From NCBI GenBank assembly GCA_922989275.2, contig OV277861.1, positions 38,318,623 to 38,382,622 of the forward strand: DNA of 64,000 nt, in the 5' to 3' direction. Below the pieces are notes generated by a model. It was not told where the DNA came from, did not search any database, and saw only the letters and a program-made list of their open reading frames with translations. The translations under genes and the position numbers were made by a program. The stretch is from Gari tellinella. Taxonomy: Eukaryota > Mollusca > Bivalvia > Cardiida > Psammobiidae. This document shows positions 380-63,823 of the stretch, piece by piece. Within the stretch, counting starts at the first letter, position 1; every line of letters begins with the position of its first letter.

Positions 380-606
380 TACAATGGAGAGGATGTTATT
401 CTTTCCTAATAAACAAGTTTATACTAAAACGATTATTTGCATTGCAAACAGTTTGGAGCCAGTTTAGATACCGGGTAACCCGGCGTCTGATCAGGCTCAA
501 AATAGTTTGCCACTCAGATAAAAAGGTATCATTTAGAAATTGCAAAACAAAGACATTTTCTACATTTTATAACAATGTTTGCTTTTACCCTGGGAGAAGA
601 AAAATA
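380..606. mobile_element. A-family MITE, diverged
   Basis: The left end CAATGGAGAGGATG and a decayed core I (428-502, apex GGGTAACCC) are present. The right end is eroded. Confidence 0.6.
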
Positions 607-734
607 CCTAGTTTTGAAGCTGTCATAGAACCAGGACTTTATAGATTAATTCTTTGATGTTTAACTCTTTCTAAAATGAACATAAACTAGACATTTTTTC
701 AAACCTAGATAGTCAATATAATAAGTTCAGTATA

Positions 735-1045
735 AAACGGATCAATCTAAACTGGTCAGAACACAATCACTTCTTATCAGTTAATGATTTCCCAAATAAT
801 GACAGGTCAATTCGGAAACGGACCTTACATACTCTGAAAACAAATTATTTATTTTCAGAGCTTCACTGAAGAATGGGCTCATTTTTTTCATGTTTAATCT
901 AGCTGATCATCAGAACAAATGGTGGAAAGTCAATTCTTATCAGAGATTGCTTTCCAAAGTAATGATCTACAGGTCAATTCCCAATTGGACCTTGAGCAAA
1001 CAAAATCATACTCATAAAACAAATTATTGTTTTCAATGCTCTTAA
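735..1045. repeat. Diverged tandem repeat, two units of about 155 bp
   Basis: GTCAGAACA, CTTATCAG, TTTCCCAAA, ACAGGTCAATTC, GACCTT and AAAACAAATTATT recur in the same order from 755 and from 908. Confidence 0.6.
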
Positions 1046-1257
1046 CAATATTTTTTCTTAATGAGATACACTTTAAATTTGATCATTCCAACTATGTTCT
1101 CCAAAAATATCCCATTGATCATGTCAATGACCAGATATAAACAACTATCTTGATATATCAGTTTCAGCAAAGAATTTCTTATTTAGATAATTATGAACAT
1201 TGTTTATCTCAAAACCTAAATAACACTATTCCAGCTACAATGTATTACCATCACAGT

Positions 1258-1448
1258 CGGGCTCCAGATAAGAGGGAGTAAATTGAAAAATCCAACATTT
1301 TATTGCTTATTTTAGCACCAAATCCTATGGTGTTACTACTCATTAGAATCGTCTCAAAGAGACAATTCTAATGAGTAGTGACAACGTAGGGTTTAATGCA
1401 GAAAGACAGATTTTAATTTTTGAAATACCCCCCTTATCTGGAGCCCTG
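1258..1448. mobile_element. J-family element
   Basis: GGGCTCCAGATAAGAGGG and CCCTTATCTGGAGCCCTG ends; centre CTCATTAGAATCGTC and mirror. Confidence 0.82.
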
Positions 1449-2040
1449 CTATCATTCTATTGGAGATTTTTAACACAGTGTAGACTGAGATCAGACAGCT
1501 TCTTCGATCAGGGTTAGGGTGAGTGGGTTATTTTTAACATGGGCTTGAATGTTTAATTCTTTCCCATGTTACTAATGATCGTGTCAAAGAATTTTTGTTA
1601 GATGTTTTACATGTATTTACTTACTGTGCTGGCGGTCTTTTTGATTGTGAGGTTGTGGAACAGGGTTTATATTTTATGTACACTGTTCGTCTTTATAGGT
1701 GAATATAGGAGATAAGAGTGAGGTTGGGCGCCCCTAAACCCAGTTTTAACCCCCCAGTGGTAGTTAATGGTTAATTTATAATTAATTATTGATTGCTGCT
1801 GACCGTACCAAGGCGGGCTCCTATGTTCACTTTGCTTTATGTTTGTCTTGCGTGTTGTTTTCTATTTAGTGTGTAGATGAAGGAATGGGATTGTGCGTGT
1901 GTGTGTGTGTGTTTGTTATGGTATGACTGTGTGTGTGTTCTGCTTGAGAGGTGGGTGTATTGTTTGTGTTGCGTTTCCTGCTTGAGTTTTTCGTATTTAT
2001 TTGTACAGTTTTATCATACGATATGTCTGGCACTAGTCTG
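1449..2040. other. Unassigned stretch
   Basis: G/T-rich on the plus strand with a GT microsatellite. GAGGTTGGGCGCCCC and CCCCAGTGGTAGTTAATGG look like a dispersed repeat body, but no ends or coding were found. Confidence 0.4.
1888..1945. repeat. (GT)n microsatellite, interrupted
   Basis: GTGTGTGTGTGTGT and a second run GTGTGTGTG a few bases on. Confidence 0.85.
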
Positions 2041-2187
2041 CCACCTGCTTTAAGTTGTAACCAGTCTTCAAAACTAGAAACAGGCTATGAGATAAAGAGT
2101 TAAGGAGCATTCTGCTGTACTTTCAACCTGCTTTACATGACCACTTTTATTCAATTTCACAAAAACACAATGTGGTAATGGGCTGAG
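2041..2187. mobile_element. Two E-family right halves in tandem
   Basis: 2041-2104 and 2105-2187 each carry the CTGCTTTAAG...CAGTCTTCAAAACTAG type right arm and a GGTAATGGG-like end. Confidence 0.6.
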
Positions 2188-2259
2188 CTCCCAGATGTCT
2201 GTTACAAACAGCATCACTGAATGAAGGCATTCTATGACAATAACATATGGAGGAAATGG

Positions 2260-2706
2260 GGGTCCGTCTAAAGACCCCAAACCTCCCCAAACCTGCCTAA
2301 AGCACTTGAAAACAAATCAAACCACTTAAATTCCTTTATATCTAATCAAAAAGAGCTTATAAATGGCAAATTTAAGCTAAACAATGAAAAAATGTTAATT
2401 TAATATTATATATTCGATGTTTTTCTTTTCAAGGGGAACAACTCGAACAAAACTTAAGATCACTTATCACAGTTACATGTACCTCTAAATATTAACTCAT
2501 TATCCTAATAGCCTGTTCCTGGTTTTGAAGACAAGTATTCTCTTAAAGCAGGTTGAAAGTAAAGCAGAATGTGCCTTAAGGTGCATTCTGCTTTACTTTC
2601 AGCCTGCTTTAAGCTACAATCTACTAGAATTGTAAAAACTTGCTTTTAAAAGTGGTTTTGGGAGGTTTGGATAAGTTTGGGGAGGTTTGGGGTCTTTAGA
2701 CGGACA
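2260..2706. mobile_element. 447-bp TIR element with 9-10 bp target duplication
   Basis: Ends GTCCGTCTAAAGACCCCAAA and its exact mirror, extending about 35 bp. GAGGAAATGG occurs on both sides (2250-2259 and 2707-2716). A 9-10 bp duplication suits Mutator-type elements, but the class is inferred. An E element is nested at 2492-2638. Confidence 0.75.
2492..2638. mobile_element. E-family MITE, right end truncated
   Basis: TTAACTCATTATCC start, perfect core II (2545-2612). Confidence 0.7.
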
Positions 2707-2708
2707 GA

Positions 2709-2788
2709 GGAAATGGTTATCCAGCAATCATTGAAGGATGATCCTATTTTGGAAGACTACAATCAGCTTTGGCAAGACAAGATTTAAT
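2709..2788 (+). CDS. Possible short 3' exon
   Basis: An open frame (EMVIQQSLKDDPILEDYNQL and on to TAA) follows an AG at the right edge of a 447-bp TIR element. The same frame crosses the duplicated target copy at 2250-2259, so it existed before the insertion. No convincing pyrimidine tract was found, so this is weak. Confidence 0.2.
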
Positions 2789-2897
2789 CAATTACATGTA
2801 GTTGTGTCTCAATATTTCATTATTTCTATTCTCTAATGCACTACATAATATCCAATTACCTCAATGCTCACAATACTGTCTATAAAATCTTTTCTTT

Positions 2898-3131
2898 CAG
2901 GGCTGCCATTTCTCCCGATTTTTCCTAAATCTTCGGATTTTTTTTCTAGTACATGGTAGCTTTAAGCAGGCTTTAGGCACATTCTGCTTTACTTCCAGCC
3001 TGCTTTAAGCAGCCATGTGTCAATAAAACTAGAAACAAGCAATGGGGTAAAGGTACGATTCGTAAAACCCCACTTGAAAAATGCAAATTTTGAAATCTTA
3101 GGATTTTTTATGTCAACTTATGGCAGCCCTG
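2898..3131. mobile_element. TIR element, CAGGGCTGCCAT ends
   Basis: Perfect 12-bp inverted ends enclose 234 bp that include an E-type core II fragment (2955-3045). An imperfect repeat of about 25 bp (ACAATACTGTCTATAA type) lies left of it and again right of it; the right copy is split by the next element. Confidence 0.65.
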
Positions 3132-3653
3132 TCAATACTGTCCAGTCCCGGATTTACCGGGGGGGCACAGGGGGCACGTGCCCCCCCAGCTGAGCCGTTT
3201 TTTTTTTTTTTTAACTTACTCTTTTTAACTTCTGAGACACCACTAAGCTCTACTGTATTGGCGTGTGCCCCTTATTTGGCCCCTACATTTTACTGTCTTG
3301 ACACTGCGGGGTGCCTTCTTTATTTAGATAACATTATAGCCCTGGGGCACATGTTTGGTAGTGGAACAATACACCCTTACACTGGTTTAATCATGTTTTC
3401 TAAGCGCTTTGTTTTACAGCTATTTCAACCTAATAAGCGTTTTAGTGATTCGGATCACAGTTAACAGGTGCATCATGTTCCCTATTAGACCCTGGCAGCA
3501 GGAGTTTGGTTACTATTAGGGATGTCAACGGATATTCGGATATTCGGATAGCTCTGGACGAACTTTTTTTTTTTAATTTCTCTTTTTTTCAACTTATTTG
3601 ATTTAAATTACGACACCAACCCATTCAAGTTCCAATACTACCGCAAGCGTTGA

Positions 3654-4193
3654 CGATTATTTATTTTTGCTTTTCGGTGGATTACCACGATATAGCAGTG
3701 GATGATCACTTGGTAATCCACTGCAGTGGATTATCACCAATCGCTTTTATTATGAATTTTCCCCGTAGGGCTCCCCAAGAATCGTAGTCAATCGTGTCTT
3801 ATCGTTAAATTCCGGCAGTCCGATTTGTCGCGAACTACTCACCGGAAGAGCACGAATCCAAACTCGGGAGCAACGAAGTCATTCGGATGACGTCATTATA
3901 CCGCCAAATGTCACGCACATGTGTTCGACATAAAACGTGGGGCTCAACACGGGATAAATAATGTACGTTCGCTTTCCATTTTTAAACAATTTCGTTTAAA
4001 AAGTGGCTTAAAAGCATAAATAAATAGAATAACTGTGTTTTTTCAGTGTAAGATCGAATTTAATCCATTTCGTGAACATCAGACTGTTATATTTTCACTC
4101 GTGGCTTCGCCACTCGTGAAAATATAACGTCTGATGTTCACTCAATGGATTAAATTTCGATCTTACACTGAAAAAAACAGTTATCCTCTATTT
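3654..4193. mobile_element. M-family element
   Basis: One end is a long palindrome (4023-4187) around CACTCGTGAAAATATAAC. The other end is single-copy and starts near TTTTCGGTGGATTACC. It is inverted relative to the copy at 11643. Confidence 0.7.
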
Positions 4194-5150: not shown

Positions 5151-5410
5151 CATGTGATTTGAATGGATGCGAATATCCGAATACTATCCGGATACTCATA
5201 CGGATATCCGAATAGTGAATTTGGTATCCGTTGACATCCCTAGAACTTACTATGGAAATGAAAGTCTGGTTAAGTTCTTATAAGGAAAAATACAGATCAC
5301 GCACAGTTACTGTCACCATGAAAAGCAAGTTGGGAAGAATAGATTCATTCCAAAACTGCGACCATCGCATCGTTTACACTGGTTACAGAAAGATGAGAAA
5401 AGACAGTTAC

Positions 5411-5654: not shown

Positions 5655-5678
5655 TCCTTCAGAAGTCCTCGATCAGGG

Positions 5679-5744: not shown

Positions 5745-5785
5745 AAATCGTTTCTTAGTGTCACTGGAATTGTTCATTTGATGTT

Positions 5786-6036
5786 TTAACTCTTTCCTCC
5801 CTGAAACTTCAAATGGACAATCCCAGTTTCCATTTAAGTATAGTCCATTTCTGACCTTTAAGGGTTGTTTTTGTCAATGTTTTGCGATATGACAAACAGT
5901 AAAGACCCAAATCAGAGGGCTGCGTAAGGAGCCCTCTGATCTGGGTGTTCACTGTTTGCATAGGACAAGTGCACTTTTCACATGTATACTGTTTGAAAAG
6001 GACGCCTAAATGTGGGACTAGGTTTCAAAGGGTTAA
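5786..6036. mobile_element. F-family MITE, complete
   Basis: TTAACTCTTTCCTCCC and CAAAGGGTTAA ends; hairpin arms GATCAGAGGGC and GCCCTCTGATC. Confidence 0.82.
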
Positions 6037-8194: not shown

Positions 8195-8520
8195 AGTGGT
8201 TGCTAAGAGCAGGTTGAAATTAAATCCTAAAGCTTCTGTAGAAGCTGTCTGCTTAACCCTTAGCCCGCCAAATAAATTGTCGTCTGCTATATTTCTCGTC
8301 TGCTTTAAGTTTCAAAGTGCTTCAAAGTTGCTCAACATTGCTGAAAATGTTGTCCGAGTGTCAAACAGCGTGGATCCGGATGAGACGCCGAGTTAGTCGG
8401 CGTCTCATCCGGATCCACGCTGTTTGCATATGGAGCTATAGTCGTGAGTGGCAGGCTAAGGGTTAACTTTCAGCTTGCTTTCAGTAGCCACATGTCACTA
8501 TGTTTAAATAATTCACTTAA
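8195..8520. mobile_element. E-family MITE hosting a G element
   Basis: Left part to GCTGTCTGC and right part from ACTTTCAGCTTGC flank the G element. Confidence 0.6.
8253..8466. mobile_element. G-family MITE nested in E
   Basis: TTAACCCTTAGCCCGCCA and its mirror; perfect hairpin CGTGGATCCGGATGAGACGC around GAGTTAGTC (8366-8431). Confidence 0.8.
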
Positions 8521-12196: not shown

Positions 12197-12558
12197 TACA
12201 GAGCTCCCTCTCTACAACGACACCCAATTGGAGACAAAATATGTGTGCGTTGTTTGGAGGGAGTCATTATAGGGAGGGAAATTGGTTTACATTTGCAAAC
12301 AGCTTCAATCCAGATCAGACGCCGCGTAACGCGGCCTCTGATCAGGATTCAAGCTGTTTGACACTCGTCATTAAGGTTTTTTCTGTCAAAATGTCAAATA
12401 TGTAACTTTGAGAAAAACAGCAGACGACAATTTTAAACATATTACATTGCAGTCGTGAATAGGTTGGACATAATTGTCCTGTATAGGGAACTTCCGCAAG
12501 GGTGGTTGTAAGAAGGGAGTCATTGTTGGGAGGGCCATTGTAGAGAGGGAGCGCTGTA
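12197..12558. mobile_element. B-family MITE 10 bp from exon 6
   Basis: TA-flanked ends CAGAGCTCCCTCTCTACAAC and GTAGAGAGGGAGCGCTG, with core I in the AAACAGCTT...AATCCAGATCAGACGCC form. It carries the CAGCAGACGACAATTTT block that G elements also contain. Confidence 0.82.
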
Positions 12559-15600: not shown

Positions 15601-18600
15601 TCTACACTGTTTGCATACGACAAGTGTACTATTCACAGATACACTGTATTCACAAGCTCACTGTAGGGCTCAATGGGGTAAAGCAGCACCAACCTCCCTC
15701 CATCTGAAAGTTTCTGCATAATTTTGTCCTTCATTAAGTTACAATTAACCCCTTTATCCCATAGCCTGTTTCTAGACTAAGTTCTGAAGACAGGTGACCA
15801 CTTAACTCTTTCCTCCCTAAAACTTTAAATGGACAATTCCAGTTAACATGTTAGTCAAGTCCATTTCTGACTTTTAAGGGTTGTTTTTGTCACTGTTTGG
15901 CATTATGACAAACAGTGAAGACCCTGATCAGAGGGCTCCTTTCGGAGCCCTCTGATCTGGGTCTTCACTGCTTGCATAGGACAAGTGTACTATTCACATT
16001 TACACTGTTTGAAAGGGACGCCTATATGCGGGACTAGGGTTCAAAGGGTTAAAGCAGATCGAAAGTAAGGCAGAATGTGTATTAAGATGCATTCTGCTTT
16101 ACTTTCAGTCTGCTTTACAGTACCATCTGCTAATAGGTTAACCCCTTACCCAATTAATACACCTTTTTACGCCTCAAATTCATTCCTTCACTGATGGATA
16201 TAGTTCCATTTAATGCAGTAAGGAATATGTACCATAAGAAATATTGTCTATATTCTAGCAGATAAAAGCTTAATGCAGTTCGAAGTGAAGCAGAATCGCA
16301 TTAAGGGGCATTCTGCTGGATTTTCAACCTGCTTTAACCCTTTCCCACATAGCATGTCTCTAGTATTGAATATAGGTGTCCACTTAAAGCAGGTTGAAAG
16401 TAAAGCAGAATGCGCCTTAAGCGCATTCTGCTTTACTTTCAGCCTGCTTTAAGCTATCATCTGCTTGAATATAGAAAATATTTTGTATGATACATATTTA
16501 TGACTGTATAAATTGGAACTATTTTCTTCAGTGAAGGAATAAACTTAATGCGCTAAAAGGCGCTTCTATGGGGGAAGGGTTAAGTGATCACTTGTCTTCA
16601 AATGTGGTAATGGGTTAAGAAGTCATCATCTGTTTTTGCAGGTATCAACATCACTGAAACAAGTGGTCAAGTGAACAGTGAATAGTTAATACAAGAGTGT
16701 CTGATCATGTTTTCCCTAATTTTGTACAAATGTATCAAAATAAAATATGCTCCTTTAAGAAATTGGAAATATCACCTGGAATCAATTTCACAACACTCTT
16801 CCAGAAACTAATCACATTTCGTGGCAAAGAAATCAAACGAATTGCAAAACAATTTCTTAAGTTTAAATGTTTTGCACAAGTCTTGCTGATAGTAAAATTC
16901 ATAATAATTATCTTAAATTACTTTAAAGGCATATCAAATTTAATATTTCACTTTAATTTACTTCAGTGTTCTCACCTTTCTTGCCAACGGAATATTCAGC
17001 TCTGTGCACATACTGTTTAAACTTTTGAGAATTCTCTTCTCCCATCCTTGCTACAAAGTAAAAAGGAATATAATTCAGGGCTCCTGTTTAGAGGGAGTAA
17101 ACTGCAGAAATCCAACATTTTCGATCTTATTTTAGCATCAAATCCTATGGTGTTACTAATCATTAGAATCGTCTCTTTGAGACGATTCTAATGAGTAGTG
17201 ACACCATAGGGTTTTAAGCAGAAATAAAGAATTAAGTTTTTGAAATACCCCCCTTATCTGGAGCCCTGATAATTTCTGCAAAATCTATATTGTAAGAATA
17301 ATCAAGTGTGCTCTAGCGATGAGTACACTTATCATTTACAGAGTACCTGTGAAGAGTACATTTGTCCTGTGCAAAATCATGATTATAAAACTTTTGCAAA
17401 CAGTCTGGATCCTGATTAGGCCTCACTAAACGTGGGCCCTGGACAGGTACCAAACTGTTTGTCACTTAAATCTCTTTTTCTTTGTAAATATAAGGCATCT
17501 AAACCTATTCAAGAAGTTAAGCAGAAGGCAGTTTGACCCTCTGACAGTTACTCAGTGTTTAACCCATTACCCCATAGCCTGTTTCTAGTATTGAATATAG
17601 GTGGCCACTTGAAGCAGGTTTCAAGTAAATCAGAATGTGCCTTAAGGCACATTCTGCTTTACTTTAACGTGCTTTAAGATACCATCTTCTAGAAAATAGA
17701 ATTTTTTTCGTATGATATATATTCATAACTGTATAAATTAGAACTATTTTCTTCAGTGGAGAAATAAATTAAAGGTGTTAAAATTATTGAGTAATGGGTG
17801 AAAGAGTTAAACAAGTAAAAGCTTAAATTTGCAATAAAATTCAGCTCATATTACCCGACTCTTTAATTCTGTTGTACCACCACAGGTGGCAGCTTAACCC
17901 ATTACCCCATAAATCTGCCTTTTTACGCCCCTCATTCATTCCTCCTCGGATGAAAATAGATCTAATTTATACAGTCAAGAACATGCACTGTAAGAAATAT
18001 TTTTTATATTCTAGCAGATAATAGCTTAAAGTTGGCTGAAAGTAAAGCAGAATGCGCCTTCAGGCGCATTCTGCTTTACTTTCAACCTGCTTTAAGTGGT
18101 CAACTGTCTTCCAAACTTTAAACAGGCTATGGGGTAAAGCTGGATGTAAGTTGTGCAAGGGGTTCCTATTTGAAGTTTTCAGTTTATCTTTCAATCTGCT
18201 ATAAGCAATCACCTGTTAGTATGTAGATCAGTTTTCCTAATACTCTATATCAGGTCCCGGTAGAAACATAAATATGTATTTCTACAAAGTATCGGTGACG
18301 GCACGAAAAGGAAACTTGTTTACTAAACAAGACTAAGATGGAACAATTGTTTCATTAATACCAACTGCTTTTTTAAGACATAGATTAAGCAGTCACCTGC
18401 CTTAATATAAGTCGCCAATTCAGCTACAGCGCTTCCTCCCCACAACGGCCCTCTGAACAACCATTCCCTCCTTACAACGACGCTTGCCGCAGTTTCCAAG
18501 ACAATTATGTCTATCGCTTCCACTGCTGCAATATACCTCTACTTAAAACTGTTGTTTTCTTTTTTTTCTTACATAACGGACATTTTGACAAATAAAACAT

Positions 18601-21600
18601 AATGATGAGTGACAAACAGCTTGAATCCATATCTGGATTCAAGCTGTTTGCGAATGTAAGCCAATTTACCTCCCCAGAACAACTCCCTCTGAACAGCACA
18701 CAAAATGTTTGTCTCCCATTGGGTGTCCTTGTAGAGAGGGAGCGCTGTATTTCTCATGACTGATTGCCTTGAAACAGGTTTACATAGAGATTTAACCATT
18801 TCACTGCCCCCCCCCCACCCTCTCACTAGAACTACTCCCCCCCCCCCCCCCTGCCCCTAGAAGTACATTTTCTATGCTTCTATATTGTGTACTGATTCAG
18901 GCCTGCGGAACTTGTTTCCTGCATCCTCATATGTTGATGCTGTAAGCAGGCATAAAGTAATGCAGAAGCTCCTTTGGATCGTTCTCCTTTACTTTCAGTT
19001 TGCTTTAAGCAAACACCTGTCATAAAGAGTGAATACAAGTTATTTGGGGGAGGGTTCAACATTATTGCTATGATTAACCCTTTACTCTGTTGTGATTGGT
19101 TAACCCCTGACCTCTACGGAACTACTTCGCGTATGAATCGGTACTACTTTATGTAGAAGCGCGGGTCAGGGACGGCATAAATAGGCACTCGCGCCATTTG
19201 CAAATTGAGTTCATTGCCACAAGCCAAACTAAACAGGAGTCAAGATCAGTCGTGACAACTTATATACAAAGTGGGTGAGTCAGTTTACTTAGTTACTCTT
19301 GATGCTTTATATGTGAACACTTTAACTCCATAGCCTGTTTCTAGTTTTGAAGACAGGTGAATTCTTAAAGCAGGTTGAAAGTAAAGCAGAATGTGCCTTA
19401 AGGCACATTCTGCTTTACTTTCAGCCTGCTTTAAGCTTCCATCTGCAAGGATATAGTAAATATTTCTTAATTTACATAATTCATGACTGGATGAATTGGA
19501 ACTACTTTCTCCAGGGGAGGAATGAATTAAATGCGCTAAAATGCGCTTCTATGGAGGAAAGGGTTAATGGATCTTGGTTTTTTTTCCTACCAACCTGGGC
19601 TTTTCTCAGGTAGACTAGAGGTTCTTTGATGTGTTCTGTTGGTGTTGTGCTTGGGTGAGGGGTGACTGGATGGGTCTGTAGGTACTGGTATATAGCATTT
19701 GCCAGTTTCTTGTCCCAGCCTAAAACATGATTATAGAACAATTATTTTACACTCAATTAAACAACAATTGAAAATACAATGTGGTAGTATTCTTAAGAAC
19801 TTACTGAATACTTCTGTAGTTTCACCAAATGAAATCACCATTAAAAGGCTGTTGCTTTGTTTTATTGATTGAAAATCCTACTTGTCCATGGATAATCAAG
19901 TCAGGAAAATTCACTTGTCCATACCAAAAAATGTCCACCTCCCATCAACAGGGACAATCGAATTTGCCACCCCTGAATAATGCACAAAACTGATATAACT
20001 TAATGACCCTATGTATTGGGACAGATATATCTAGGCAAACAGTGTAGCCCTTGATCTGACTGCTCCCTGAGGAACAGTCTGATCAGGCTATACGCCATTC
20101 GGCTAGCACCTTTTGGACAAATTATCCTCTACTCTGGTAGTTTTGGACAGCCTGGTATAGTAGTTTTGGACACTTAAAAAATTACACAAAATGGAACACA
20201 TCCACTTGCTTCAGCATGCCAGAATTCTGTCAAAACTTTGGAAAGAACGTTATTTCGCCTTTTAAAGAAGAAAACACCAGGATTATTGACTGTTAAAGAA
20301 TTTGACTGATTGATCATATTGCAATACAAAATTACCATCGAAACCTAGTCATGTTTTGTCTTGAGAAAATTACTTCCACAAATGTTTTATTCTCTGACCT
20401 TCACGTATAAATAATTCACATCTCGTAATATCCTAAAAGTGAACTGTAGTTGCATGCAAACTTTTCGTCATAAGCCTCCATATGACGTCATTAATCAGAT
20501 CGTCCGAATCTACCAGTAGCACTTCAGTGATACAGATGGATCAGGGGGCATGTATGTACGCATTTTTCAAATGCATTTGTTAGATTCTCAGTTGACTATT
20601 TTAAAGAATTTTTGTTGTGTTTGAGTTTTGGAGTAAGTGCACTTGCCCAGATAAACGGTTAAGGTGTCCAAATCTACCCTACTCCAGGCTACTATTTGTC
20701 AATATGTGATAATTAAAAGAAATCAGTTTAATTGTTAGGCACATATACAGGGTATCCCTATTTTAAGATCCGCAATAGCTGAAAGATAGCGAAAGCTGCT
20801 GTGGAACTATCTTCCTACCTGTAAACAAGTAGTGCGAACGGCAAGAGATATTCTTCCGCCTAGCAAATGATAGACATATGGGAAAAGTATTCCCTATGAG
20901 TTCTAGTATCGAGTACAGTGGTGCCCCATAGAAGATATGGAGGGGAAAACTGACTGCTATTTATCATAAAACCACCATATTTTACTAATCACGGATCCCC
21001 TCAGTGCTTTCAGCACTTTGATTAGTATTTACTGTACCTGAAACAGCCAATCCATTCTGAACGCCTTTTTTTAGCTCAGAAACTCGTATGTTGGTTTTGG
21101 AAATTTCAATCTGAAAAAAAAATAAAAATAAATAAAATTACTTGTATTAGTTTCTGACATATGAAATAAGAGGTGCTAGTAAGAAATAAATGCATAACAT
21201 TAGCTTAAGCAGCAGAACTTTGTGTTAATTTACAGAAACTTAAAATATCGAAATTCAGCCCCATCACGCATCAGCACAATTTATGGAACTTGGCACAAAT
21301 AAATTTCCTCCCCATAGCACAGAATAATACACACTGTGACACATATGTGTGTCATATTCTGTGTCCATATAGGCAACATAAGACCCTGACTGAGACAACC
21401 AGCTGCATGGTTCAATGGTAGAGCATCCGCTTGCAGTGCAAGAGGTTGTGGGTTCAATCCCCTGCCATGGCAAACCGAAGACTTAAAAATTGGCAGTAAT
21501 ATGGCTTCCCTTCTTGTCGCTCAGGATTTTGGGTTAGCATTAAATTACGACTGGTTCATCATGTCAGGATAAAGTGACCGGCCGGGTAGTGTACCTGGTG

Positions 21601-25998: not shown

Positions 25999-26248
25999 TA
26001 CAGTGGAGAATCTGTTATTCTTTCCCAATAAACGCGTTTACGCTAAAACTATTATTTGCAGTGCAAACAGTTTGGAGCCAGATCAGACGCCGGGTAACCC
26101 GGCGTCTGATCAGGCTCCAAACTGTTTGCCACCAAGATAAACAAGAATTATCAGAATTGTCCAAAAGTTGTTCTTTTCTACGTTTTAGTGCTTTGCGTTT
26201 GCGTACGTTTGCGTTTAAACGGGAAAGAATAACAGATTCTCCACTGTA
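25999..26248. mobile_element. A-family MITE, complete
   Basis: TA-flanked perfect ends TACAGTGGAGAA and its mirror, the subterminal block TTATTCTTTCCC, and core I with apex GGGTAACCC. This is a reference copy of about 250 bp. Confidence 0.88.
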
Positions 26249-28911: not shown

Positions 28912-29157
28912 TTAACTCTTTCGCTGCCAAATTAATCGTGAGCTTTTTATCCCACCACCGTTTCGTTGTCGTCTGCTTCAATTTGTTGTTTGCAAGATCG
29001 TTTCAAAGTAAGATTCAAAGTAGTATGACTTAAAGTATATCTATACGAGTGTCAAACAGTATGGATCCTGATCAGACGCCGCGTTACGCGGCGTCTGATC
29101 AGAATCCAAACTGTTTGAAAACGCGCCTTTTGACGTCATTAAGAGTGAAAGGGTTAA
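28912..29157. mobile_element. G-family MITE
   Basis: TTAACTCTTTCGCTGCC to AAAGGGTTAA; perfect hairpin GATCAGACGCCGCG and mirror. Confidence 0.85.
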
Positions 29158-33321: not shown

Positions 33322-33571
33322 TACAGTGGAGAATCTGTTATTCTTTCCCGTTTAAACGCAAACGTACGCAAACGCAAAGCACTAAAACGTAGAAAAGAAC
33401 AACTTTTGGACAATTCTGATAATTCTTGTTTATCTTGGTGGCAAACAGTTTGGAGCCTGATCAGACGCCGGGTTACCCGGCGTCTGATCTGGCTCCAAAC
33501 TGTTTGCACTGCAAATAATAGTTTTAGCGTAAACGCGTTTATTGGGAAAGAATAACAGATTCTCCACTGTA
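33322..33571. mobile_element. A-family MITE, complete
   Basis: Perfect TA-flanked ends. Very similar to the copies at 25999, 52162 and 62795, which suggests recent spread. Confidence 0.88.
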
Positions 33572-37130: not shown

Positions 37131-37200
37131 ACAGTGGAGAAGACGTTATTCTTTCCCATGAAACGTGGCAAATGACCAGTGAAACAAAATACAGTGCTCC
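37131..37200. mobile_element. A-family left-end fragment beside a B element
   Basis: CAGTGGAGAAGACGTTATTC starts the fragment. It is cut by the B element at 37190. A similar A-type left end resumes at 37570. Confidence 0.6.
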
Positions 37201-37568
37201 TTCCCTACAACGGCCCTCCCAACATCAACTCTCTCCTTACAACGACCCTTGCTGATGTTCCCCAAACAAGACATTTATGTCCAACATTTTTATAGCTGCA
37301 ATACCGTCTGCTTAAATTTGTCGTCTGCTGTTTTTCTCTCAAAGTAACATATAAGTGGACATTTTGAAAGAATAAAATTAAATATGATGGCGAATGTCAA
37401 ACAGCTTGACTCTAGATCAGAGGCCGCGTAACGCGGCGTCTGATCTGGATTCAAGCTATTTGCAAATGTAAGCCAAATATTAATTTTCCCTCTCTGTAAC
37501 GACTCCCTCCAAACAACTCACACATTCTGTGTCTCCCATTGAGTGTCGTTGTAGAGAGGGAGCACTGT
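37190..37568. mobile_element. B-family MITE
   Basis: Ends CAGTGCTCCTTCCCTACAAC and GTAGAGAGGGAGCACTG; core I at 37399-37462. Confidence 0.82.
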
Positions 37569-37569
37569 G

Positions 37570-38155: not shown

Positions 38156-38364
38156 TACAGTAAAACCTCTCTATTACGACCACTAAAAATAAGGCTAATT
38201 GGTTGTATAAAAGACAGGTGACAGCTTAAAGCAAGGTGACGGTAAAACAGAAAGCTCCTACAGGAGCTTTCTGTTTTACTGTCACCATGCTTTAAGCAGT
38301 CACCTGTTCTTAATCCCTAATAACCAACACACTTTATTGGTCGTAATAGAGAGGTTTTACTGTA
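38156..38364. mobile_element. C-family MITE, complete
   Basis: TA-flanked ends CAGTAAAACCTCTCTATTAC and mirror, with core II in between. The ends resemble those of Tigger/pogo-like non-autonomous elements, which also use TA. Confidence 0.85.
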
Positions 38365-43380: not shown

Positions 43381-43732
43381 TACAGCGTTCCCTCTCTACA
43401 ACGACACCAAATGGGAGACAAAGATTGTGTGCGTTGTTCAGAGGGAGTCGTTACAGGGAGTGAAATTGGCTTACACTTGCAAACAGCTTGAATCCAGATC
43501 AGACGCCGCGTCACGCGGCGTCTGATCTGAATTCAAGCAGTTTGTCACCCGTCATTATATGTATTCCATCAAAATGTAATTTTGAGAAAAAACAGCGGAC
43601 GACAATTTGAAGCAGACGATATTGCAGCAGTAAAAGTGTTAAACATTTTGTCTTGTTTGGGGAACAGCCATAAGGGTCGTTGTAAGGAGGGAGTCGTTGT
43701 CGGGAGGGCCGTTGTAGGCAGGGAACACTGTA
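43381..43732. mobile_element. B-family MITE, complete
   Basis: TA-flanked ends CAGCGTTCCCTCTCTACAAC and GGCAGGGAACACTG; core I apex GCGTCACGC. Confidence 0.85.
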
Positions 43733-43788: not shown

Positions 43789-44009
43789 AACTCTTTGCAT
43801 GCTGGATAATCTTGTCGTCTGCAACAAAAGTCGTCTGCTGATGTTTTATAAATAGAATTTTCTAATTTTGTTTTCAAACAGGGTCAGAGTGTCGAACAGT
43901 TTGGATCCTGATGAGACGCCGCGTTACGCGGCGTCTCATCTTGATCCAAACTGTTTTCAAATGTAATCAATGTGGCAGATATATCCGCCGCTAGCATGCA
44001 AAGAGTTAA
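43789..44009. mobile_element. G-family MITE
   Basis: TTAACTCTTTGCATGC and its mirror GCATGCAAAGAGTTAA; hairpin GATGAGACGCCGCG and mirror. Confidence 0.85.
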
Positions 44010-45550: not shown

Positions 45551-46110
45551 AGCAGTGCGCCCTCCCTACAACAGCTCTTAGAACAACGAGTCAGTCCTTA
45601 CAAAAACGCTTGTCACTGTTCCCCAAACAAGGATATTTTGTCTTACCCTTTCACTGATGCAACATAGTCTGCTTAGAATTGTCGTCTGTTGGGATTTTCC
45701 TCAACGTTACATATCGGTCATTTTGATAGAGAAAAAAGACAATGACGACTGGCAAACACTTTGAATCCAGATCAGATGTCGCATTACGCGGCGTCCAATC
45801 TGGATTCAAGTTGTTAGCCATTGTAAGAAAAGTCGTTCTCAACACATTAAGGGTGTTAAGCTTCTCACCGCATTACGCGCCGTCTGATCTGGATTCAAAC
45901 TGTTTGCCATTGTAAGCAAATTTGTGCTTAACACGTTAAGGGGGTTAAACTTCTCACTGCATTACGCGTTGTCCGATCTGGATTCAAGCTGTTTGCAAAT
46001 GTAAGCAAAGTCGTGCTCAACGCTCTAATTGTATATACCTTCTCATCCTATAGCAACTGCTTCCAAATAACACACACACTTTTTGTCTCCCTTTTGGTGT
46101 TAGAGTTCGT
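45551..46110. mobile_element. B-family MITE expanded by an internal tandem repeat
   Basis: Left end CAGTGCGCCCTCCCTACAAC. The right hairpin arm and about 60 bp beyond it occur three times (units starting 45781, 45870 and 45959). Confidence 0.68.
45781..46040. repeat. Three-copy tandem repeat, period 89 bp
   Basis: Each unit opens GCATTACGCG and runs through the right half of core I to CTTCTCAC. The spacing is exactly 89 bp twice. Confidence 0.8.
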
Positions 46111-48074: not shown

Positions 48075-49030
48075 TTGCTGAAAATGACTGTTTCAGCCTT
48101 GTCCGCTCTCTAACTCAAACACTTCTTTTTTGATCTTCACTAATCTTGCTATAAATGTTTATTAGAATAGAATCTAGCTCAAGTTTGATAACTAGCAAAA
48201 TCGCTTAAGGCATGTCTGAGTTATTGTCCTTGAATAATTGAAAAATGACTGTTTCAGCATTTTCTGCGTTCTAACACAAACACTTTTTATTGGATCTTCA
48301 CCAAACTTGCTGACAACGTGTATTGGTATTAAATCTAGGTCAAGGAAAAAAGTATTTGTGTTAGAGAGCAAACAATGGTGAAACAGTCCTTTTCAATACA
48401 TAAATGGCAATAACTAAGATAATCCTTATGGAACTTTAGTAATAATCACACTGGACCTAGATTTTATATAAATAAAGAATTTCAGCAAGTTTGGTGAAGA
48501 TCCGATGAAAACTCTTTGTGTTAGAGAGCAAAAAAGGCTGAAACAGCCATTTTTTAATAATTAAAGGGCTATTACTCCAACATGCCTCATGCAATTTTAG
48601 TAGGATTCAAACCTAACCTTGATTTTATATTAATGAAAACTTTCAGCAAGTTTGGTGAAGATTAAAAAAAAGGTATTTGTGTTGGAGAGCAACATTTGCT
48701 GAAAACAGTCATTTCTAATACATAAAGGGCAAAAACTCAGATATGCCACATACGATTTTAGTAATAATCAAACTAGACCTAAATTTTATATGAATAAATA
48801 TTTTCAGCATGTTTGGGTAATATCCGATAAAACCTGTTTGTTTTAGAGTGCAAAAATGACTGTAACAGTCATTTTTTTATTACAAAACAGGCAATAACTC
48901 AAAAATACCTTATGCGATTTTCGTAGTAATCAAACTAAACCTTGATTTTATATCAATGAACATTTTCAGCAAGTTTGTGGAAGATCGGATAAAAATTTTC
49001 GAGTTAGAGAGCGGACAAAAAAGTGTGATA
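48075..49030. repeat. About 160-bp repeats, part inverted, in copy 1
   Basis: Two units face left (48075 to about 48350). Forward units then recur at 48356, 48514, 48675, 48837 and 48996 on the GTGTTAGAGAGCAAA block, spacing 158-162 bp. Each unit has AGCAAGTTTGGTGAAGATC. Confidence 0.85.
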
Positions 49031-51640: not shown

Positions 51641-51869
51641 TTAACCCATTTACTCCTAGTGTATTTTTACATGTTTATATATTGGATTAGTCCATTTTTT
51701 ATCAAAGGGATGCCTGTTCAAAAATTTCATTTTTATTTTGTTTTATATTGAAATTCCTATCAGCAAACAGTGTATACTCTGATCAGGCGCCGCATAATGC
51801 GGCGTCTGATCAGAGTCTACACTGTTTGCCTATGTCCCATATATCGGATCGTGGACACAAATGGGTTAA
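51641..51869. mobile_element. H-family MITE, complete
   Basis: TTAACCCATTTACTCC to ACAAATGGGTTAA; hairpin apex GCATAATGC. Similar 30-bp stretches lie on both sides (51609-51638 and 51867-51898). Confidence 0.8.
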
Positions 51870-58254: not shown

Positions 58255-59075
58255 GCTTGCTGAAAATGACTGTTTCAGCCTTGTCCGCTCTCTGACTCAA
58301 ACATTTCTTTTTGGATCTTCACCAAACTTGCTACAAATGTTTATTAGTATAAAATCTAGGTCAGGTTCAGTAACTAGCAAAATCGCATAAGGCATGTTTG
58401 AGTTATTGCTGAAAAATGCTGAAACAGTCATTTTTTAATACATAAAGGGCAAACACTCAGATATGCCACATGCGATTTTTGTAATAATCAAACTAAACCT
58501 AAATGTTATATACTTAAACATTTTCAGCAAGTTTAATGAATATCCGATAAAAACTGTATGTGTTAGAGTGCAAAAAGTGACTGAAACCGTCATTTTTCAT
58601 TAATTAACAGGCAATAACTTAGATATACCTTATGCGCTTTTAGTAGTAATCATACTAAACCTTGATATTATATCAATAAATATTTTCAGCAAATTTGGTG
58701 AAGATCCAATAAAACGTATTTGTGTTAGAGAGCAAACCTTGCTGAAAACAGTCATTTTTTAATACATAAAGGGCAAAAACTTAGGTATGCCACATGCGAT
58801 TTTGGTATTAATGAAACTAGACCTGAATTTTATATGAATAAATATTTTCAGCATGTTTGGTGAATATCCGATAAAAACTGTTTGTTTTAGAGTGCAAAAA
58901 TGACTGAAACAGTCATTTTTTATAAATTAACAGGCAATAACTCAAAAACACCTTATGCGATTTTAGTAGTAATCATACTAAACCTTGTTTTATATTAATG
59001 AACATTTTCAGCGAGTTTGTGGAAGATCGGATAAAAGATATTCGAGTTAGAGAGCGGACAAATAAGTGTGATAGT
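58255..59075. repeat. About 160-bp repeats in copy 2
   Basis: One inverted unit, then forward units near 58551, 58718, 58880 and 59041. Fewer units than copy 1, so the array has changed in number since the copies separated. Confidence 0.82.
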
Positions 59076-59717: not shown

Positions 59718-59836
59718 CATTCAACCCTAGTGACGAGTATACTCGTCATTTACAAACAGTGTACCTTAGAGGATAACACTTGTCCCAAGCAAACAGTGTA
59801 GACCCTGATCAGAAGGCTCCCTAAGGAAAAAGGTAT
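59718..59836. mobile_element. F-family left half in a core II remnant
   Basis: TTAACACATTCAACCC to GATCAGAAGGCTCC; it enters E/C-type sequence at GCTCCTTAA. Confidence 0.65.
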
Positions 59837-59975
59837 GTACAGTGCTCCCTATCTACAACAACATCCAATGGGATACAATTACTACGTGTGTTTTTGGAGG
59901 GATTTGTTATAGGGAGGGAACATTAAGACGACTTTCATTTGCAAACAGCTTGAATCCAGCTCAGACGCCGCTGAT
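59837..59975. mobile_element. B-family left half
   Basis: TACAGTGCTCCCTATCTAC to a core I left arm (GCAAACAGCTTGAATCCAG), broken within the hairpin. Confidence 0.65.
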
Positions 59976-60463
59976 CTATATGTCCAGTATACCACAAGCG
60001 AAACAAAATTTAACATAGAAAAGGACAATCGTTTGACAATACTGATCAATTATTTTAATCTCAGTGGCATTTGGAGCGTGACCAATCGCAAGGTAACCTG
60101 GTCTCTGATCTGGTTCTAAGCTGTTTCAATTGAATCATGTTTTCTGCATAAATGCATTTATTTGCAGAGAATTTGCGTCTTTTCCTCTGTATATTATGCT
60201 GGTTGGTTTGTGGTGGTACATTCGAGACAATTAAGTTTTAGCTAAAACCAATTTGGAGCAAACGGTTTTGAGCCAGTTCATATAAGCCAAGTTATTGGGC
60301 CCCATACCAGGCGCAAAACCTTTGGCCATATAGGTATAAAATGAAATGTCAGTTATAAGATGATGTTGCAGATTTGGTTAAATATGTCCCTCAAGACACT
60401 TAATGATGCGCCATTCTTCCATTTTCGACGACGGCCATTAACAGTGTATTAAGGTTTGGACAT

Positions 60464-60670
60464 TAACCCTTTCACTCTCAATGACGCTTAAAAGCGCGTT
60501 CGCAAACAGTTTGGATCCTGATCAGACGCCGCGTCACGCGGCGTCTGATCAGGATCCAAACTGTTTGACACTCGTTTTGAAATTTCTTTAGTCATACTGC
60601 CTTTCCTATTAAATTTGAAACGACATTGCAGACAACAAAATTGAAGTGATGACATGAACTTATTATTGCC
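60464..60670. mobile_element. G-family MITE
   Basis: TTAACCCTTTCACTCTC start; perfect hairpin GATCAGACGCCGCG around TCA. Confidence 0.76.
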
Positions 60671-60785
60671 TGGATATTGCAATGAACTATCCCTGTATAC
60701 TTACTGGAAGATTTCATTGTTGATATAAATAAGTGATCAAACGACACTGCAATGTATGTCCATGCAGCAGAATAGTTCATGTAAT

Positions 60786-61445
60786 ATAGCAAACAATGCA
60801 GACCCTGATGAGACGTCGCGTAACGTGGCATCTCACCAAGGTATAGACTGTTTGCCAATGTCCACGTTTGTAGCCACTAGGTTTGAATGGATTAATTTCA
60901 CCAACAATAACACCTGACCACATAAATATGCCTGATGTATGGACTGTAAATATATAATCATTGTAATTATTTGAATATGTTGTCTTCTTAACTGTTTGCC
61001 AATGTCCACGTTTGTAGCCACTAGGTTTGAATGGATTAATTTCACCAACAATAACACCTGACCACATAAATATACCTGATATATATGGACTGTAAATATA
61101 TAATAATTGTAATTCTTTGAATACGTTGTCTTCCTAACTGTTTGCCAATGTCCACGTTTGTAGCCACTAGGTTTGAATGGATTAATTTCACCAACAATAA
61201 CACCTGACCACATAAATATACCTGATATATGGACTGTAAATATATAATAATTGTAATTCTTTGAATAGGTTGTCTGCGTAACGCGGCATCTCATCAGGAC
61301 TTACACTGTTTACCAATGTCCACGTTTGTAGCCACTAGGTTTAAATGGATTATTATCACCAACAATAACACTTGAATACATGAATATGCCTGATGTATGG
61401 ACTGTAAATATAATCATTGTAATTTTTTGAATAGGTTGTCGGCGG
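60786..61445. repeat. Tandem array from half of a core I element, four units
   Basis: Units start at 60847, 60991, 61137 and 61305 with ACTGTTT(G/A)CCAATGTCC. Each continues with a shared 120-bp tail (GTAGCCACTAGGTTT onward). Periods are 144, 146 and 168 bp. The unit before 61305 also contains a right hairpin arm (AACGCGGCATCTCATC). Confidence 0.85.
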
Positions 61446-61477
61446 TTTTCCCCTGACTTAGTCATCAAAATGAGTGC

Positions 61478-61640
61478 AGTTAAGAATCTCTATTACCATT
61501 ACGGTCACTAAATTATGTCAGTTTATAAAGCGTTTAAAGAAGGTTGCTTCTTATAGCAAGGTGAAAGTAAAACAGAAAGCTTTATCACGTCCACTTTGCT
61601 TTAGACTGTAACATGTATAAGTTGGAGTTTATTTTCTTTT
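61478..61640. mobile_element. C-family fragment
   Basis: AAGAATCTCTATTACC, then GCAAGGTGAAAGTAAAACAG and CACTTTGCTTTAGACTG. Confidence 0.5.
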
Positions 61641-62064
61641 GTGGAGCAATAACTCAAATGCGTAAAAACGAGTAAAATGAGTTAAAAATTCCTGTAGAAA
61701 ACTCATAACAAAATTTATATTTATTTTCAAGCAACTTCTAAGTTCGTCCATGTGAAGTGTTATTAGTTGTTTAACTAGCAGAAGAATTTAATAAGCAAAA
61801 TTTGCTTTCTTTCTCATCCTAATGTATATTTATGTTTGATTATAAAATATGTACTATTTTGAAATAAAATATGTTTAAACTAAACTAACTAGCAGAAGAA
61901 CACTGTATTTATCGAAAAAAGCAAACAAAAGCAAAATCTCAAGTTTAAATTGGAAACTCTATAAAACACTGTCGCAGAAGTTAATAAGCAGCTACAAAGA
62001 AGACTCACGGACATTACGCAGATAATGAAAGATGCACATTTTCTTATAAACGTATCCCCTTGTG
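61641..62064. other. AT-rich stretch
   Basis: Holds ATTTTGAAATAAAATATG (a polyadenylation-like string, possibly a LINE or gene tail); nothing else. Confidence 0.4.
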
Positions 62065-62314
62065 TACAGTGGAGAAAACGTTATTCTTTCGCGTTTAAAC
62101 GCAAACGAAACGCAAACGCAAAACACTAAACTGTTGAAAATGGCATCGTTATTAAATTTCCGACTATCTATTTTAATTTGAGAAGCAAACAGATTTGAGC
62201 CTGATCAGACGCCGGGCAACCCGGCGTCTGATCTGGCTCTAAACTATTTGCAATGGAAATAATAGTTTTAGCGTAAACGCGTTTATTGGGAAAGAATAAC
62301 GTCTTCTCCACTGT
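62065..62314. mobile_element. A-family MITE, complete
   Basis: Left TACAGTGGAGAAAACG, right CGTCTTCTCCACTGT; core I apex GGGCAACCC. Confidence 0.85.
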
Positions 62315-62518
62315 TTTCCCTATGTTTCACTTTTAGTTTAACCTATTTCGGGATAAAAGGATTGAAAATGAAATTCACTATCATGTTTTTTTGTTTCTGT
62401 TTTTTGTTTTCTCAAATATTCATCAAGAATGAGTTTGGTAACCCTCGCGTTGATTAAATTATTGTCCTTAATCCATTCGTTACTGGGAATTAAAATTACA
62501 ATATTCTTTTATTCGTTT

Positions 62519-62764
62519 TACAGTCTAGTGTTTTGCCTATAAATAAACTCGTTTGTTCTAAAACAATTATTTCTTCTACAAACAGTTTGAAGTCCGATTC
62601 GACGCCGGCTTACCCGGCGCCGAATTAGTATCCAAACTGTTAGGCACTAAAATTAAAATAAATCGTAAAAAATATCTAAAAATTGACATTTTCGTCCTTT
62701 TATCGCAAAACGTTTGCGTTTCGTATGCGTTTAAACGTGACAGAATAGCATCTTCTCCACTGTA
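62519..62764. mobile_element. A-family MITE, left part decayed
   Basis: Right end CATCTTCTCCACTGTA is intact. Core arms TTCGACGCCGG and CCGGCGCCGAA keep pairing although the sequence differs from the family. Confidence 0.72.
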
Positions 62765-62794
62765 ACAAACATCGATATGGGTAGCAAATACAGT

Positions 62795-63044
62795 TACAGT
62801 GGAGAATGTGTTATTCTTTCCCAATAAACGCGTTTACGCTAAAACTATTATTTGCGGTGCAAACAGTTTGGAGCCAGATCAGACGCCGGGTAACCCGGCG
62901 TCTGACCAGGCTCCAAACTGTTTGCCACCAAGATAAACATGAATTATCAGAATTGTCAAAAAGTTGTACTTTTCGACGTTTTAGTGCTTTGCGTTTGCGT
63001 ACGTTTGCGTTTAAACGGGAAAGAATAACAGATTATCCACTGTA
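62795..63044. mobile_element. A-family MITE, complete
   Basis: Ends CAGTGGAGAATG and ATTATCCACTG; core I apex GGGTAACCC. It abuts the B element that follows. Confidence 0.86.
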
Positions 63045-63369
63045 TGCCTCTCTTCAACGGCACCCAATGGGAGACACAGATTATGTGTGTTGTTCGGAGG
63101 GAGTCGTTGTAGGGAGGGATTATTATGACGTGTCTTACATTTGCAAACAGCTGTTTGTTACTCGTCATTAGATGTAATCTATCAAAGTATCTACTTACAC
63201 TTCTTTTATATGTAACTTTGAGAAACAACAGCAGACGACAATTTTAAACAGACGATAATACAGCAGTTAAGGCGTTAGGCATAATTGTCCTGTTTAGGGA
63301 ACCGAGGCAACTGTCGTTGTAAGGAGGGAGTCGTTGTTGGGAGGGCCGTTGTAGAGAGGGGACGCTGTA
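63043..63369. mobile_element. B-family MITE with collapsed hairpin
   Basis: The left end is joined to the preceding A element. The whole hairpin is reduced to GCAAACAGCTGTTTG (63141-63155). The right end is GTAGAGAGGGGACGCTG. Confidence 0.78.
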
Positions 63370-63475
63370 GTGTGAATGTTGAGTTACTGTTAACTAGTGT
63401 TTGTACTTGGGTAAATACAGAGAAGAGAACAGACGCATTATTTCAATGCCTGGCTGATTACCGACAATATGTGCA

Positions 63476-63823
63476 TACAACACCCCCTCCCTACAACGAC
63501 CCTTCAAACAACGACTCCCTCCTTACAACGACCATTGCAGCAGTTCCCCAAACAAGACAAGTATACCCAACATATGCACTGCTGCAATGACGTCTGCTTA
63601 AAATGGTCGTCTTCTGTTTCCCTCAAAGTTACATTAGTTGCACATTTTTGACGGAAAAAACCTTAATGGCGAGTGGCAAACAGCTTTAATCAAGATCAGA
63701 CGCCGCGTTTCGCGGCGTCAGAGACTGGATTCAAGCTGTTTGCAAATGTAGCCAATTTCCCTCCCTATAACGACTCCCTCCATTGTCTCCCATTGGGTGT
63801 CGTTGTAGAGAAGGATTGCTACA
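63476..63823. mobile_element. B-family MITE
   Basis: CCCCCTCCCTACAACGACC and GTTGTAGAGAAGG ends; core I apex GCGTTTCGC at 63676-63742. Confidence 0.78.

Follow-up and report, generated by a model that had tools for sequence, protein, structure and literature searches.

A long hairpin of one kind recurs throughout the 64,000-nucleotide stretch of the genome of the bivalve Gari tellinella analyzed here (assembly GCA_922989275.2, contig OV277861.1, positions 38,318,623 to 38,382,622 of the forward strand), which is referred to as the window. This hairpin (class 1, of the form CAAACAG..GATCAGA..) lies in several families of miniature inverted-repeat transposable elements (MITEs), some of which end in TA and others in TTAA. 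The statistical comparison of copies supports that the hairpin was conserved along the lineages that spread, and one of the TA-ended families, P2, probably acquired it when an element with TTAA ends inserted into an element with TA ends. We consider it moderately likely that the hairpin belongs to a superfamily of TTAA elements, that its ends were changed by nesting of one element in another and that it is kept because it serves propagation.

Hairpins and the element families around them

An earlier note, made from the sequence of the window, had proposed that hairpins of the same plan occur across several MITE families. This is borne out by profile searches and folding. A class-1 profile built from 38 seed hairpins gave 66 matches in the window (nhmmer, E ≤ 0.01), or 63 when the window was searched jointly with 200 kb more, and a profile of a second hairpin (class 2), built from 13 seeds, gave 34. 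Ten dinucleotide shuffles of the window contained no match to either profile. Eight chosen hairpins, folded as single-stranded DNA, reached -32.8 to -41.7 kcal/mol, and for each of them none of 200 shuffles was as stable. Of the limits that had been given for the region, 380 corresponds to the outer end of a P1 copy (380-624) and 63823 to that of a P2 copy (63476-63823).

The wider sample consisted of 20 further 10-kb stretches (L001-L020) at hand-chosen positions on contigs C1-C13, which together with the window amount to 264 kb. These stretches contained 142 class-1 (0-15 per stretch) and 81 class-2 hairpins (0-14 per stretch). Extrapolated to the assembly size of 1,597,604,326 bases in 80 contigs, this would correspond to about 1.1 million class-1 and about 0.65 million class-2 hairpins in the genome, provided that the 200-kb sample is typical. 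Recognized cores and arms occupy 14.2% of this sample and 25.7% of the window. Among tiles of 100 bp, 668 of the 733 that occur 20 or more times in the 264 kb are no more than 200 bp away from a hairpin, compared to 2109 of all 5238 tiles, an excess that is partly built in because the hairpins are repeats themselves. The density of hairpins over L001-L020 is very uneven (class 1: mean 7.1 per 10 kb, variance 28.6), and the densities of both classes are uncorrelated (Spearman 0.16, p = 0.50).

Families were defined by reading outward from each hairpin and by building profiles of the arms. Two families, P1 and P2, have TA ends, with the terminal inverted repeats (TIRs) TACAGTGGAGAA and TACAGTGCTCCCTC, respectively, and three families, T1, T2 and T3, have TTAA ends, so that the claim of one hairpin behind both kinds of end proved right. 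In terms of the earlier note, families A and B are mapped here to P1 and P2, F, G and H to T2, T1 and T3, C to class-2 type ii and E to class-2 type i. The 264 kb include 205 class-1 cores: 58 of P1 (20 cores in the window carry this label), 33 of T1, 21 of P2, 17 of T2, 3 of T3 and 73 without a recognized arm. In the labelled families the B arm is longer than the A arm, and each lies on a fixed side of the hairpin. The consensuses of P1, P2 and T2 are 250, 363 and 251 bp long with matching ends, and the mean identity of copies (found by the hairpin itself) to the consensus is 0.83-0.94 inside these elements and 0.41-0.54 outside. P1, P2 and T2 are short and repeated and have terminal inverted repeats and constant ends, as is typical of MITEs.

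When only copies with both arms classified are considered, TA is present at both ends of 38 of 48 P1 and 7 of 13 P2 copies, and TTAA at both ends of 7 of 11 T2 copies; the remaining copies have lost one end, or both ends in the case of one P1 and one T2 copy. As TA is palindromic, its presence at both ends of P1 and P2 does not prove a duplication. In both families CAGT directly follows the TA ends, no coding frame was noticed in their consensuses, and we take them to be MITEs of the Tc1/mariner-pogo type. The TTAA families end, as judged by eye, in a TTAAC(C/T)C-type sequence. With TTAA at both ends and a piggyBac-like terminal motif (ends of T1 and T3 read by eye), T1, T2 and T3 can be regarded as piggyBac-type MITEs by their sequence, and they are better seen as one superfamily than as separate families. 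The inner arms of T1 and T2 exhibit a weak similarity (p = 0.001 over 45 nt, uncorrected for the 30 arm tests). P1 copies occur in both orientations, and some apparent families may therefore be one family read on the other strand. The idea that arms and termini of all families are unrelated holds only for a part of them: the TIRs of TA and TTAA families differ outright, but the ends of the TTAA families are alike, and P2 and T1 share an arm of ~110 bp beside the hairpin, in which the block reported as common to families B and G, CAGACGACAAT, was indeed found. At L018:360-560 a divergent class-1 hairpin is located between inverted GGGCCCGTTTTACTAAAC..ACTTACGCAAAATTTTGCGTAAGT-like sequence, by eye possibly a third kind of termini or a nested insertion.

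The second hairpin, which had been described as common to a TA and a TTAA family, corresponds to types ii and i of class 2, and this class thus repeats the split between both kinds of end. By eye, the ends are TTAA (TTAACCCATTACCCCATAGCC) in type i and TA (TACAGTAAAACCTCTCTATTACGACC) in type ii, and type iii apparently has related TA ends with the shared flank form GACAGGTGAC; 70, 11 and 5 near-full-length copies, respectively, were found. Class-2 hairpins have TTAA at their base. When typed consensuses of class 1 and class 2 were paired and their arms matched without gaps, 17 of the 18 pairs had the peak at the same register, the only strong match being that of P2 with type i (19/31, p = 0.0005 before correction for 18 tests), which is only suggestive of a relationship between the two classes.

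Probable nested origin of P2 and test for exchange between families

The sequence of P2 makes it quite likely that this family goes back to a single event, in which a TTAA hairpin element landed in a TA element, the resulting composite being propagated with the TA ends. The B-arm profile of P2 finds 47 stretches, of which 20 are P2 arms reaching profile positions 170-197. Among the 27 others, 19 stop at positions 105-113, the site of their own TTAA-type ends. In pairwise alignments to P2, 31 of 33 T1 B arms score more than 5 above the best of 30 shuffles. Of these 31 alignments, 24 start at P2 positions 72-99, near a relic at ~90-94, and 17 start within 10 nt of a TTAA-like end. At this relic P2 reads TCTAACGCTTTTACGGCTGCAATATCG, and in single copies TTTAACACTTTTACTGC and TTACCCTTTCACTG, the counterpart in T1 being TTAACCC-type ends. 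In 19 of 20 P2 arms the alignment of the relic starts at one of the first three letters of TTAACCC (a count without shuffle control). Outside of it follow ~90 bp not seen in T1, and then the TA end. At the opposite junction three P2 A arms (37463, 39569 and L010 707) retain TTAATTT, as judged by eye. P2 forms one side of a branch versus T1 (15 P2 and 29 T1) with a support of 99/94, the bootstrap being not fully settled. The reverse route, i.e., a TTAA family born from inside P2 exactly at the relic point, appears less likely, and the hairpin itself probably entered P2 by mobile-element traffic.

Nesting was also observed outside of P2. A second TTAA-type end 32-34 nt within the outer end is present in 8 of 33 T1 copies and in none of 660 shuffled arms, with motifs chosen after seeing the copies. 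The T2 element at 15802-16052 sits directly at the base TTAA of a class-2 hairpin, and an autonomous piggyBac element (L026) sits, by eye, at the base TTAA of a class-2-like hairpin. A preference of TTAA elements for the TTAA sites of hairpins was considered and rejected, as no enrichment was found: the TTAA at the class-2 apex reads as occupied in 4 cases versus 56 intact ones (both strands counted), and 8 of 110 base sites read as occupied, at least two of them falsely by eye, against a background of 367 out of 2562 TTAA sites where an element end is read on one side or both.

The elements and hairpins of the window referred to in this study are the following (window coordinates, strand):

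33322..33571, +: 250-bp P1 element with TA ends; hairpin 33442-33506
25999..26248, -: P1 element in the opposite orientation; hairpin 26064-26128
380..624, -: P1 element with partly decayed ends, marking the left limit; hairpin 445-509
37190..37569, +: P2 element with TA-type ends, the right one mutated, and an apparent TTAA-type hairpin MITE inside; hairpin 37398-37462
43381..43732, -: P2 element in which the putative inner TTAA relic, TTTAACACTTTTACTGCTGCAATATCGTCTGC, scores best; hairpin 43480-43544
45753..45815, +: hairpin of a P2 copy, its B arm reading GTCTTACCCTTTCACTG, a putative relic of a TTAA-type end
12197..12558, -: P2 element; hairpin 12296-12360
63476..63823, +: P2 element at the right limit, ends decayed; hairpin 63677-63742
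28912..29157, +: T1 element, TTAA ends, with the putative relic of a second TTAA-type terminus 34 nt within the outer end; hairpin 29053-29117
8253..8466, +: T1-type element (8362), TTAA ends, TIR TTAACCCTTAGCCCGCC resembling the TIR of the autonomous piggyBac element L030
43787..44009, +: TTAA element (core 43895), TIR TTAACTCTTTGCATGC; hairpin 43895-43956
15802..16052, +: T2 element, TTAA ends, its right TTAA being the base TTAA of the class-2 hairpin at 16049; GATCAGAGGGC hairpin 15909-15974
5786..6036, +: T2 element; hairpin 5893-5958
51764..51828, +: T3 hairpin, TTAA family
60790..60854, +: divergent TTAA-type hairpin (T4, A arm common with 61274)
19365..19434, +: hairpin of class 2, type i, from the TTAA family
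38226..38295, +: class-2 type ii hairpin within a TA element, TIR TACAGTAAAACCTCTCTATTACGACC

For the commonest family, P1, the situation is different from P2. The hairpin is common to P1, T1 and P2, and by eye older P1 copies also share with them a GAGTG before CAAACAG. No homology to T1 was detected in the inner arms of P1, and the nested route is therefore not shown for this family; an ancient capture of little more than the hairpin is possible. The hairpins of P1 (33442-33506) and T2 (15909-15974) have the same T-T mismatch at stem pair 17, a position which is paired in the consensuses of P2 and T1.

An ongoing spread of the hairpins between families by recombination or gene conversion, along the lines of the earlier note, is not supported. 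The core tree was calculated from 99 cores of at least 58 bases, out of 132 family-labelled ones, over 65 columns and with labels set by the arms alone. On this tree the labels of the five families require four changes, which is the fewest possible (mean of shuffled labels: 48.2), and when neighbors are determined from the core only, 97 of the 99 cores are nearest to one with the same arm label, the exceptions being two T1 cores nearest to P1. When counted as one family against the rest, T1 requires three changes, which indicates that it may be the stem group. Both arms could be classified in 72 copies (48 P1, 13 P2, 11 T2), none of which was mixed; T1 and T3 are without an A-arm profile, so that a foreign A arm of unknown kind would escape detection there. 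In this sample, no mixing of families after the proposed nesting is seen, and an exchange of the hairpin cassette that still goes on by recombination or gene conversion is improbable. What speaks for exchange is that P1 has little beyond the hairpin in common with T1 and P2 and an inner arm not detectably related to T1, and a rare ancient exchange into P1 is possible. Unlikely, though less so, is a purely vertical descent from one ancestral hairpin MITE, whose arms and ends drifted past recognition while the hairpin did not. Such a descent would fit the TTAAC(C/T)C-type ends common to the TTAA families, the weak similarity of T1 and T2 inner arms and the lower variability of the hairpin within families, and it may hold among T1, T2 and T3. 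However, it does not readily convert TTAA to TA ends, and as P2 keeps what appears to be a TTAA-type end within a TA element, the simple common ancestor that had been named as an alternative is not the whole story. The further suggestion that the hairpin itself is a mobile unit inserting into MITEs is extremely unlikely. The TTAA at the base of class-2 hairpins would agree with it, but of the 73 class-1 cores with unassigned arms 28 are partial and in 27 one or more TTAA-type ends occur no farther than 140 bp away, which leaves 18 without a recognized TTAA end, several of them low-scoring. The search around these cores covered TTAA- and TA-type ends, and the counts refer to TTAA ends only.

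Constraint on the hairpin and its possible role

As copies found by the hairpin would bias the comparison of identities, constraint was analyzed with copies found by one arm profile only (E ≤ 1e-4, minimum lengths), and copies whose other arm was less than 50% identical to the consensus were dropped. This favors the other arm, if anything; the first run for P1 kept 53 of 55 and 61 of 61 copies. A column was regarded as having shared variation when a minor allele occurred in three or more copies and in no less than 10% of them. Such columns were scarcer in the hairpin than in the other arm in all six comparisons (Fisher p 1.8e-6 to 0.037): 5/65 versus 34/120 and 4/65 versus 15/65 in P1, 5/65 versus 74/199 and 7/65 versus 30/99 in P2, and 19/66 versus 49/107 and 10/66 versus 24/78 in T2. 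Singletons, which are mostly post-insertion mutations, did not differ between hairpin and arm in five of the six comparisons. The hairpin is thus conserved along spreading lineages. This is most simply read as a spread of those lineages whose hairpin is intact and bears the motifs, with free decay of the copies once they are inserted. Low shared variation together with ordinary singletons fits selection during propagation and argues against a use of single copies by the host. Of the shared function that had been suggested for the hairpins, a role in propagation is accordingly suggested by the pattern of conservation, whereas no sign of host use of single copies was seen in the singletons.

The pairing of the stem is conserved as well. 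The ten pairs of the five family consensuses differ at 79 stem positions, of which 49 are two-sided with Watson-Crick pairing kept, 22 one-sided and 8 two-sided but unpaired, and stem changes coincide in the two arms above expectation in each family pair (p 0.0002-0.0078). The class-2 types differ from each other by two-sided changes alone (6, 7 and 8; consensuses typed by hand). Within families, two-sided changes also exceed the expectation for independent changes (P1 11 versus 4.5, T1 26 versus 11.3, P2 3 versus 2.1, T2 6 versus 3.2), not all of them being complementary, which suggests that a mutational correction from arm to arm may contribute. Changes in single copies are mostly one-sided (P1 126, P2 42, T2 32, T1 142). 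The motif CAAACAG is present in all five family consensuses.

The explanation that we favor would view the hairpin as the conserved heart of an old and very abundant superfamily of non-autonomous TTAA (piggyBac-type) mini-transposons. New ends would be gained when one mini-element lands within another and the composite spreads with the ends of the outer element. The hairpin would be kept because copies with an intact hairpin propagate better, for instance by a folded arm joining the ends or by a factor binding the CAAACAG and GATCAGA motifs, and it would have no role for the host at individual insertions. That the hairpin has a role in spreading at all appears possible and is put forward tentatively. 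A more far-reaching version, in which the hairpin is a portable enhancer of propagation in cis that is selected during amplification and not after insertion, that serves two unrelated transposase superfamilies and that raised its bearers to a major share of the 1.6-Gb genome, is rather speculative.

Several observations weigh against this explanation. None of the 57 inner B arms of P1 compared with T1 scored above the 99th percentile of shuffles, while 15 of 21 P2 arms did. With regard to P2, seven of the 31 alignments with T1 start elsewhere (16-40 or 111-119), local alignments may overrun an end by chance, and the letters TTAA survive in only 2 of 20 relics. Only 3 of 88 inner branches of the core tree, based on 65 columns, are well supported. 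Concerning constraint, the contrasts in T2 are weak (p 0.037 and 0.032), the six comparisons are two per family and therefore not independent, with low-identity other arms dropped, and the sixth comparison has more singletons in the hairpin (23.2 versus 15.4 per 1000, p = 0.0087). Finally, neither hairpin profile matches inside five autonomous piggyBac copies (L023-L026 and L030; two kinds, both ends read), which means that those elements do not need the hairpin.

Two further explanations concern the reason for the conservation. The palindrome might be kept by a mutational process, namely template switching between the arms in replication, and not by selection. This is somewhat unlikely, though the least so of the competing explanations. 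In its favor, differences between consensuses are mostly two-sided and complementary (49/79), the class-2 types show two-sided changes only and two-sided changes are in excess within families. It would, however, not explain that letters are conserved and not only pairing, as seen for CAAACAG, nor that single-copy changes are mostly one-sided. The other possibility is that the hairpins serve the host, e.g., as precursors of small RNAs. Long hairpins in very high copy number would suit such a use, and MITE-derived microRNA genes are on record in an article that is cited here for this point only (PMC1784062). Since singletons occur at about the same frequency in hairpin and arms and inserted copies thus show no protection, a service to the host is very unlikely.

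Mobilization of the TTAA mini-transposons by autonomous piggyBac elements appears plausible. The piggyBac transposase domain has at least 86 matches in the genome, the 19 best of which have open frames of 449-635 aa. Four copies (L023, L024, L025 and L026) are 97.5-99.8% identical over ~3.1 kb; L023, L025 and L026 end in TTAACCCTTTCGGCGCC, and L024 has lost the TTAA at both ends by at least one base. Another element, L030, ends in TTAACCCTTAGACCGCC on one side and TTAACCCATAGCCCGCC on the other. TTAACCC-type ends are common to the T families and to L023, L025, L026 and L030, and by eye the TIR of element 8362 (TTAACCCTTAGCCCGCC) resembles TTAACCCTTAGACCGCC of L030, 8362 being the only one compared out of the T1, T2 and T3 elements. 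The hairpin as a part of the autonomous elements was ruled out for the five copies mentioned above. The hairpin matches near L025, L026 and L030 are located at the border of the element or beyond it, and the match at L021/L022 lies in a separate TTAA-bounded stretch of ~200 bp in the flank. Hairpin-like matches were also seen upstream of diverged piggyBac transposase frames (L027:829-897, L031:857-921 and L032:3181-3245), for which no element ends were found; L027 and L031 are ~71% identical. This association is perhaps old, and chance is likely given the density of hairpins.

Relation to known elements and further observations

Compared to piggyBac-type MITEs, the TTAA families described here have the same TTAA ends and TTAACCC-type TIRs, with a conserved central hairpin added. 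With what we take to be Tc1/mariner-pogo-type MITEs the TA families share TA ends followed by CAGT, and P2 differs from these by an apparently whole TTAA-type insert. The nearest precedent are the CMITEs of the coral Acropora, which are described, in the portion of the article that we cite, as TTAA MITEs with differing TIRs and a conserved internal region of unexplained origin, for which the authors suggest a function in transposition (Wang et al., 2010; PMC2872659). One of them, CMITE-IN, is a new element from a MITE that inserted into another element (PMC2872659). Going by that portion, the class-1 families resemble CMITEs in the piggyBac-type TTAA MITEs among them, in the probable nested origin of one family, P2, and in an internal region that is more conserved between families than the TIRs, the last of which was observed here. 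The coral elements are TTAA elements of ~100 bp, whereas in G. tellinella a long compensated hairpin lies behind both TTAA and TA ends, and the words hairpin and secondary structure are absent from the text of the CMITE paper (PMC2872659). When the printed 60-bp coral consensus was compared with the 264 kb, its best match (blastn E 0.41) fell into the range obtained with 20 shuffled queries.

A different kind of precedent is the V highly-conserved domain of short interspersed nuclear elements (SINEs), which sits inside the mariner MITE MER6 (PMC6887750). As far as the sections of that report cited here go, it is likewise a conserved module common to different classes of elements and carried by the replication of a DNA transposon, but it is derived from SINEs, whereas the module in G. 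tellinella is palindromic and has DNA mini-transposons as both of its hosts. Among the matches listed in open-licence literature, no description of this hairpin, or of a hairpin module common to TA and TTAA MITEs, was recognized in the excerpts returned. A search with the letters of the motifs yielded only apparently unrelated papers, judged by titles and the beginnings of abstracts, and one hairpin pattern had no match in viral contigs.

If its nested origin holds, P2 represents a traceable case of a MITE family that changed its ends, and hence presumably its transposase, by nested insertion. The contrast between private and shared variation separates selection during transposition from function after insertion, and if the hairpin enhances amplification, it would help to explain the very high copy number of some MITEs, which is an old open question.

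Some further features of the analyzed DNA were noted. A glucosylceramidase frame in L019 has its closest named relatives, among the 120 listed of 1337 matches, in Mercenaria (64%), Mactra (59%), Dreissena (57%) and Mya (55%), the best listed match reaching 70%, which places the host near the venerid clams. The window contains three frames of at least 120 codons, one of which was scanned and gave a reverse-transcriptase match below the Pfam cut-off (E 1e-4). Tandem units of ~161-162 bp with long inverted repeats are located at 48081-49000 and 58263-58991 of the window (repeat tables). An interspersed high-copy family, GGGCTCCAGATAAGAGGGAGTTATTTCAACAAATC.., occurs without either hairpin nearby at window 1350-1450, L015:6650-7800 and L009:8700-8800, and was the sole dispersed hairpin-free family noticed among the 60 most repeated of 354 tiles far from hairpins. 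Highly repeated tiles far from hairpins also stem from L008:7150-10000, where a tandem array was found whose unit (TACTTGACATTC..ACACATGTAGGCAGGCATCACAGTGGT) measures ~59 bp by eye.

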